This document shows positions 17,657 to 18,303 of a DNA stretch of 64,000 bases, one piece after another (the first letter of the stretch is position 1; every line of letters begins with the position of its first letter). The notes beneath the pieces are model-generated. The model did no database searches and was not told the origin of the DNA. It saw nothing but the letters and a program-made list of their open reading frames with translations. A program made the translations under genes and the position numbers. Origin of the DNA: a bacterium (lineage in GTDB: Bacteria > Verrucomicrobiota > Verrucomicrobiia > Verrucomicrobiales > Akkermansiaceae). The stretch covers positions 1 to 64,000 of the forward strand of contig JAAEZT010000010.1 of assembly GCA_018222765.1 (NCBI GenBank), read 5' to 3'.

Positions 17657-17872
17657 CCCCGCCACCATGTCACGGAACGGGCAAGTTTGAACTCAGAACT
17701 GACGAGGTGAACACTTTGTGAATAAGTTTTCCTGATAATCCCAAATTTCCCTTCTCCAGGGTCAGCTCAAGCATTGGTCCGGATCGCTAAAAAAAATCTG
17801 GGCACGCCGAATAAATGTGGTTTAGTGCGGTCTGACGAGGGGTAATTCAACATCCTCGCAACCAAAGAAAAC

Positions 17873-18217
17873 ATGAAAACTACAATCGCAATGATCGCTG
17901 CTTTCGCAGCTTTCACCTCCGGAGCCATTGCCGCTCCAGTCGTGACAACCACAACCACCCAAGCGGAAGTTGTGGCTGCTGATGAAAAGACGACCGTTCT
18001 GGCCGTCACAGGATTACGGTGAGCATCCGGATGTTCTAGAAAAGTGCAGGCTGCACTTAAAGGAGTCAAGGGAGTCACCAAAGTTAAAGTCGGTAAAAAG
18101 ACCGGCACTAATGCTGACACCACCGTTACCGCTGGTAAAGACGTCAAAGTTGCCGACATGGTCGCCGCCCTTAAAAAGGTTGGTTACGGTGCCACTGAAA
18201 AGAAGGCAGATTCATAA
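17873..18217 (+). CDS. Candidate selenoprotein: exported heavy-metal-associated (HMA) domain protein with UGA at codon 50
   Basis: Read through one in-frame TGA (18020-18022), this is a 114-residue protein ending at TAA 18215. Residues 1-21 are a signal peptide ending AIAA. A short Thr/Ala linker follows, then an HMA-like ferredoxin fold: VTGLR-U50-ASGC54-SRKVQAALKGVKGVTKVKV, later VADMVAALKKVGYGA. In HMA proteins the U50 position is the first metal-binding cysteine (GMxC); the C-x-x-x-C spacing matches, as I recall it, a known C-x-x-G-C subgroup. A perfect hairpin with loop GGC begins 19 nt after the TGA and its loop lies 26 nt after it, as bacterial SECIS elements require. The frame stays open and HMA-like for 64 codons after the TGA. 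A nonsense mutation is the alternative. Confidence 0.75.
18042..18058 (+). promoter_or_regulatory. Candidate bacterial SECIS hairpin of the HMA gene
   Basis: AAGTGCA (18042-18048) pairs perfectly with TGCACTT (18052-18058) around the loop GGC. The loop starts 26 nt after the TGA, inside the 16-37 nt window reported for bacterial SECIS elements, and its first base is G. The tip, GCA-GG-C-TGC, closely resembles the E. coli fdhF SECIS tip as I remember it. SelB binding is inferred. Confidence 0.65.
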
Positions 18218-18265
18218 TCTGATTCAGTTTGATAAGAACTGAACCCTGATATTTTTCAAATTTAG

Positions 18266-18303
18266 AAACCCACGCTGTCCCACGACTGCGTGGGTTTTTT
18301 TTA
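18266..18303 (+). terminator. Rho-independent terminator after the HMA gene
   Basis: Stem AAACCCACGC (18266-18275) pairs with GCGTGGGTTT (18288-18297) around a 12 nt loop, followed by an uninterrupted run of T to about 18302. It lies 48 nt after the HMA stop codon, which supports the whole 345 nt frame, including the part after the TGA, being one transcription unit. Confidence 0.9.

Follow-up and report, generated by a model that had tools for sequence, protein, structure and literature searches.

The results indicated that the gene at 17873-18217 (+) very probably encodes a selenoprotein, as judged from the sequences of the locus and of its relatives. The window, i.e., the whole stretch of DNA that was analysed, comprised 64,000 nucleotides from a bacterium of the Akkermansiaceae. 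In the proposed mechanism, selenocysteine would be inserted at the UGA at 18020 by SelB and tRNA-Sec, with the hairpin at 18042-18058 as the guiding element, and the product would be a small exported protein of the HMA fold, probably periplasmic in this organism.

Structure of the read-through gene

The coding sequence started with ATG at 17873, contained one in-frame TGA as codon 50 (18020-18022) and ended with TAA at 18215-18217, which left 64 codons past the TGA. When the TGA was read as selenocysteine, the product consisted of 114 residues with Sec at residue 50, in which an apparent signal peptide was followed by a linker and then by the HMA domain. Residues 1-21 (MKTTIAMIAAFAAFTSGAIAA, encoded at 17873-17935, +), inspected by eye, resembled a cleavable signal peptide and probably form one, and the HMA domain occupied residues 42-105 (17996-18187, +), spanning the TGA. 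A strong Rho-independent terminator, consisting of a hairpin and a T-run, was found at 18264-18299 (+; -22.3 kcal/mol, z -6.7). These features agreed with the preliminary description, which had placed a signal peptide upstream of a single in-frame TGA, the TGA itself at the first metal-ligand position, and 64 codons of HMA sequence with a terminator downstream. The gene stood alone between large frames that inspection by eye assigned to dnaE and rpoC, and a search of its own genome revealed one copy of the 114-residue HMA gene. Rfam gave only sub-threshold matches at the locus.

In a six-frame view, the gene was divided into a frame of 49 residues up to the TGA and a frame of 57 residues beyond it. 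Two competing frames were present at the locus, one of 90 residues at 17970-18242 (+), already pointed out as an overlapping frame in the preliminary description, and one of 130 residues on the antisense strand at 17767-18159 (-); neither had a Pfam match at E 0.1. Comparison of 17 sequences, including that of the window, gave a pN/pS for the sense frame of 0.29 just before the TGA and 0.40 after it, as sums over all pairs of sequences, which are not independent of each other. Purifying selection acts on the sense frame both before and after the TGA.

HMA domains canonically hold two soft ligands in a GMxCxxC loop. The Pfam HMA model (PF00403) matched residues 42-105 of the window protein with an E-value of 4e-4 and a score of 21.1 bits, below the cut-off of 24.8 bits. 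Despite this score, the sequences clearly point to kinship with HMA domains, because the profile of A1, an alignment of 30 read-through members, matched solved chains of MerP and bacterial CopA at E 1e-13 or better, the MerP chains at E 7e-14. By sequence, the domain is grouped with MerP, CopZ and the N-terminal domains of CopA. The observed loop, GLxUxxxC, kept both ligand positions with one extra residue relative to GMxCxxC; the first position was occupied by the TGA (18020-18022, +) and the second by Cys54 (18032-18034, +), which was invariant in all 30 rows of A1. The motif U-A-S-G-C given in the preliminary description was recovered, with the refinement that its spacing is U-x-x-x-C and not the usual CxxC. 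Among the 58 Sec sites collected, 56 had the U-x-x-x-C spacing and two (L142 and L144) had UxxC, and the motif was preceded by G-[LMV]-x.

Conservation of the TGA codon among relatives

The Cys form of the protein was used in the first search, which covered 192 relatives. Matches were found in 41 genomes, 36 of them with a match that held one in-frame TGA and the other five with Cys-type HMA domains only. All of the best 33 rows by E-value carried a single TGA within the matched region, always at the equivalent motif position of the alignment, and no Cys codon, other residue or frameshift was found at that position in these rows. Homologues of the read-through translation, which the preliminary description had proposed to search for, were thus abundant in their Sec form. 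A stop, a frameshift or a non-Cys residue at this codon in close relatives, which it had regarded as evidence against a selenoprotein, was absent from the best 33 rows, and one distant member, L143, appeared to be frame-broken at a point downstream of the codon. Across the remaining 29 rows of A1, the identity to the window protein was 27-70%.

A search of 386 genomes of the order with the A1 profile gave matches in 122, and members with the TGA made up 49 of the best 50 rows; the odd one (G121) was a CxxC domain with TGA codons upstream. Across the phylum, the profile found HMA domains in 79 of the 387 sampled genomes, with at most 12 candidates scored per genome. Among the matches listed, the window's own row alone had an in-frame TGA (G236 had TAA), and an in-frame TGA is therefore no general feature of HMA genes. 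In the genus of the window, every match listed contained the TGA, and no Cys version exceeded the thresholds in either search. In the search of the 192 relatives, nothing matched in five genomes of the window's genus, of which one, G024, had a UxxC member according to the profile.

The 58 Sec sites were assembled from 44 genomes. Because they were selected for a TGA at the motif, and the 17 later additions also by a loose downstream protein pattern, the TGA in 58 of 58 is no test, and the unselected counts are the 33 of 33 and 49 of 50 best rows. Loci L047 to L051, L076 and L106 to L131 were dropped as duplicates. The TGA-flagged rows of G284 and G121 were left out because the TGA lay upstream of a CxxC HMA frame. 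In 57 of the 58 sites, between 54 and 72 open codons followed the UGA. The frame of L143 (G176:C126) ended 40 codons past the UGA, a frameshift after the motif having probably removed the second half of the domain. The named carriers in the species collection were metagenome-assembled Akkermansiaceae, Verrucomicrobiales and Verrucomicrobiaceae (4 loci), and a search of plasmids gave no match to the family. As judged from the aligned sequences, the TGA at the motif is more than chance.

A SECIS-type hairpin downstream of the UGA

A bacterial SECIS is a hairpin just past the UGA with a G at the start of its apical loop. In the window, a 7-bp hairpin (18042-18058, +) started 19 nt after the UGA, with 18042-18048 paired to 18052-18058 and the loop GGC at 18049-18051. 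With the first base of the UGA numbered 0, bases 22-28 paired with bases 32-38 around a three-base loop of the GGC/GTC type. The pairs were formed, from the innermost to the outermost, in 50, 50, 50, 50, 50, 45 and 43 of 50 distinct sequences, and the first loop base (G29) was G in all 50. The two UxxC sites, L142 and L144, were outside this table of pairs and outside alignment A3 but were counted within the 52 Sec sites described below. Exactly the same helix was predicted by RNAalifold. Overall, 96.6% of the pair cells were formed, compared with 18-53% when the partner was slid by 1-3 bases. Two-sided changes occurred in three of the seven pairs and amounted to 14 cells, against a mean of 2.8 after shuffling (0 of 500 shuffles as high). 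The clearest example came from L057 and L061, in which GTGC...GCAC was replaced by GCGC...GCGC, a change that altered the amino acid on one side and was silent on the other. Codon usage was also restricted at the stem: the Val codon was GTG in 48 of 48 cases, compared with 18% in the remainder of these genes, and the codon for the Ala after the loop was GCA (48) or GCG (2).

Shuffles that preserved the codons showed that the native sequence folded better than the mean in all 35 distinct sequences from the first 41 sites, and at 18 of these 35 no more than 25 of 500 shuffles were as stable. The window's own hairpin was not significant individually, since 82 of 500 codon-preserving shuffles were as stable. 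In the same register, the 39 distinct Cys-type HMA sites taken from the collected loci as a control reached at most 5 of the 7 pairs, and 51 of the 52 Sec sites had 6 or 7. The one exception, with 4 pairs, is taken to be L144, which is without the standard stem. Since the Cys sites were without the hairpin and the Sec sites had it, the hairpin tracks the UGA and not the HMA sequence. The family thus showed the position, the loop G (G29) and the covariation of a SECIS, with L144 excepted. L144 itself (G034:C3) was a distant Sec-HMA protein with the spacing UGGC, and a different hairpin folded after its UGA.

Selenocysteine machinery and other readings of the TGA

The genes for selenocysteine insertion, for which the preliminary description had suggested a check, were all present in the genome of the window: selA (488 bits), selB (272 bits, with positions 2-362 of the 581-position model matched, in an open frame of 647 residues), selD (374 bits, G000:C60:58831-59760, L158:2332-3261) and tRNA-Sec (54 bits with Rfam; tRNA-SeC(tca) with ARAGORN). 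The selD gene had an in-frame TGA of its own in GGUASK, as do the genes for Sec-containing selenophosphate synthetases. About 1.3 kb beyond selB, another HMA protein was encoded (G000:C87, L069:6366-6854, -), which was of the Cys type (LVCSSCS). In the comparison among relatives, tRNA-Sec was found in 27 of 36 gene-bearing genomes and in 48 of 156 others (Fisher p 2e-6, with kinship ignored). With the profile, a member later came to light in five of the others, of which four had tRNA-Sec, and the counts changed to 31 of 41 and 44 of 151 (p 1e-7, again with kinship ignored). No tRNA-Sec above the cut-off was found in nine of the 36 gene-bearing genomes; seven of the nine had selA above the cut-off, G099 had two pieces below it and G001 had none. 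G111, in which a member was found later, had neither tRNA-Sec nor selA. The genomes lacking tRNA-Sec were drafts of 61-93% estimated completeness, except for G026 with 97%, and a missing tRNA-Sec is weak evidence because of the draft state of these assemblies.

If the TGA were a real stop, as the relic of a pseudogene, a sequencing error or the border of two unrelated short frames, the six-frame view with only its 49- and 57-residue frames would be as expected. Chance, error and pseudogene were rejected because of the conservation of the TGA in the best 33 rows, the frame, which continued for 54 to 72 codons past the TGA at 57 of 58 sites and had a pN/pS of 0.40 there, and the hairpin that tracks the TGA sites; with the Sec machinery also present, a real stop is extremely improbable. 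A genome-wide reassignment of UGA to a sense codon, without selenium, had no support other than the in-frame TGA itself. Of the window's 33 non-overlapping frames with 200 or more residues, 7 ended in TGA (these were mechanical frames, not all of them proven genes), the tRNA-Trp in the window had the anticodon CCA, and tRNA-Sec was present. Reassignment was rejected on the TGA stops and the tRNA-Trp, and its probability is considered negligible.

The antisense frame at 17767-18159 could be imagined as the real gene, with the sense frame as its shadow, since it was open over 390 bases, overlapping frames clustered with it in many relatives, and its pN/pS was also below 1 (0.38 and 0.48). Both its openness and its low ratio are explained by the fact that the two frames share their third codon positions. 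The antisense gene was rejected as highly unlikely on three grounds: it had no Pfam match at E 0.1, the sense pN/pS was lower on both sides of the TGA (0.29 and 0.40), and L026, L028, L043 and L046 had retained no 70-residue antisense frame.

Putative function of the Sec-Cys pair

For the product of the read-through gene, the proposed role is to scavenge or carry a soft metal outside the cytoplasm, and the metal would be bound by the Sec50 selenolate and the Cys54 thiolate. A pair of soft ligands in that location suggests that the metal would be one such as Cu(I), Ag(I) or Hg(II). We infer such a role for the pair with slight preference, and the statement as a whole, that the gene encodes a selenoprotein and that its function involves a soft metal, is regarded as fairly probable. 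No metal-resistance family was found among the 20 neighbours scanned with Pfam at other loci, one of which had no match; the neighbours were varied housekeeping genes, and therefore there was no operon support for a metal role.

The main rival to metal binding is a selenoprotein whose Sec-Cys pair has a redox role, cycling through a selenenylsulfide, with the HMA fold as a mere scaffold. Oxidoreductases constitute most selenoproteins of known function, according to the GOS survey (PMC2398784), the extra residue of U-x-x-x-C departs from the CxxC metal loop, and the 20 neighbours scanned included no metal genes. However, the domain is of the HMA type and not thioredoxin-like, and it retains a GM/GLxC-type motif along with its second Cys. 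E-values of 1e-3 or better were obtained with the CopZ and MerP models for 28 to 30 of the 30 members, although the window protein scored below the cut-offs of these models. In addition, no gene for a redox partner stood out alongside. The redox role is considered possible, at odds clearly below even, and soft-metal binding is the preferred reading.

For heavy-metal-linked selenoproteins in general, Sec has been suggested as a possible metal ligand, and their precise roles have been said to need study, in a recent review (PMC13188914). The bacterium and many relatives appear to share a small exported protein of the metal-binding kind with selenocysteine as one ligand residue. These proteins form a small and well-defined family with dozens of natural variants, so that the effects of the selenolate and of the widened loop would be measurable against the Cys form.

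Comparison with known families

The window protein scored below the cut-off of all 13 NCBIfam models that it matched at E 10 or better. Among six related proteins, only the two-domain protein L059 passed one model, NF047957 (CopZ-family metallochaperone), with which the whole protein, in two matched stretches, scored 101.8 bits (cut-off 85 bits). MerP (TIGR02052) and CopZ (NF047957, NF033795) are likewise free-standing HMA domains with two soft ligands, but they have Cys and not Sec, the CxxC spacing, and the context of a mer or cop operon. No such context was seen for the family here, either next to the window gene (dnaE and rpoC, by eye) or among the 20 neighbours elsewhere, and the window protein reached 20.8 bits with the MerP model, against a cut-off of 92.55 bits.

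The preliminary description had also considered Sec in an exported HMA protein to be rare and little studied, which needs tempering, as NF041115, NF045683 and a "MerP" of the GOS survey had already been recognised. NF041115 (UxxU_metal_bind, metal-binding (seleno)protein) is likewise HMA-like, and all 30 members of A1 matched it at E 1e-3 or better. Its motif is UxxU by name, whereas the family here has one Sec per domain in U-x-x-x-C, and the window protein scored 36.1 bits against a cut-off of 95 bits; a table in the review lists a protein of this type with two Sec (PMC13188914). NF045683 (MerT_CopZ_Se, MerT/CopZ fusion-like heavy metal transport selenoprotein) has a CopZ-like part and was matched weakly by 24 of the 30 members. 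It describes a fusion of 235 positions with a cut-off of 375 bits, whereas the proteins here are stand-alone, and two members scored 25.6 and 31.9 bits. Earlier examples of Sec in HMA-type proteins also include a cation ATPase with UxxC and a Sec-containing "MerP" in the GOS survey (PMC2398784). The latter ("Mercuric transport protein MerP", Table 2), likened to the present family by name alone, is an HMA-type selenoprotein by its name and was listed with 2 sequences from 1 sample and 0 Cys homologues; the family here may coincide with these two sequences or differ from them. Among the titles and abstract openings listed by literature searches, there was no stand-alone exported Sec family of the U-x-x-x-C type whose hairpin covaries, and no such family was found in the 2026 review (PMC13188914) when it was looked up under UxxxC, PF00403, MerP and MerT. 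The Sec-HMA kind is thus already known, and the stand-alone exported U-x-x-x-C family is a further variant of it, with no NCBIfam model that accepts the window protein.

Cys homologues aligned with the U at 39 Cys HMA sites, two of which had the same spacing. These candidate orthologues, in G366 (L078/L155) and G134 (L153), were small HMA proteins with apparent export signals and the same C-x-x-x-C spacing (CAVGC and CPTKC, respectively), but they had a Cys codon in place of the TGA and were without the hairpin (4 and 3 of the 7 pairs). Small exported-looking CxxC proteins, such as L147 and L148, also occurred in the order.

Variants and paralogues

Tandem Sec-HMA copies were found in G085 and G104, and two proteins combined two HMA-U domains, with a separate UGA and hairpin for each domain, namely L059:1151-1726 (G134) and L054:1479-2042 (G078, -). 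A mechanical frame search cuts or misses such genes, including those for the proteins with two Sec domains. Tentatively, Sec may be practically obligatory in this exported HMA protein, the copies elsewhere multiplying as tandem genes and two-Sec double-domain proteins, and U-x-x-x-C may constitute a distinct selenolate-thiolate site, for a soft metal or for redox chemistry, beyond that of the CxxC proteins. L153, a Cys paralogue in G134 whose motif has identical spacing, is a possible counter-case to an obligatory Sec. The tree of Sec and Cys domains (71 columns, 84 rows) was poorly resolved, with five changes needed for the Sec label, and no history of gain or loss was drawn for this reason. 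In L059, two further in-frame TGA codons were observed near the N-terminus. Lipoprotein-like paralogues were recognised by eye in several relatives. The lipoprotein-like Sec-HMA subgroup comprised six loci (L138-L142 and L145) and adjoined related genes, namely one for adenylosuccinate lyase (identified with Pfam on the L138 copy only) and one for a protein of roughly 293 residues that had no match in Pfam.
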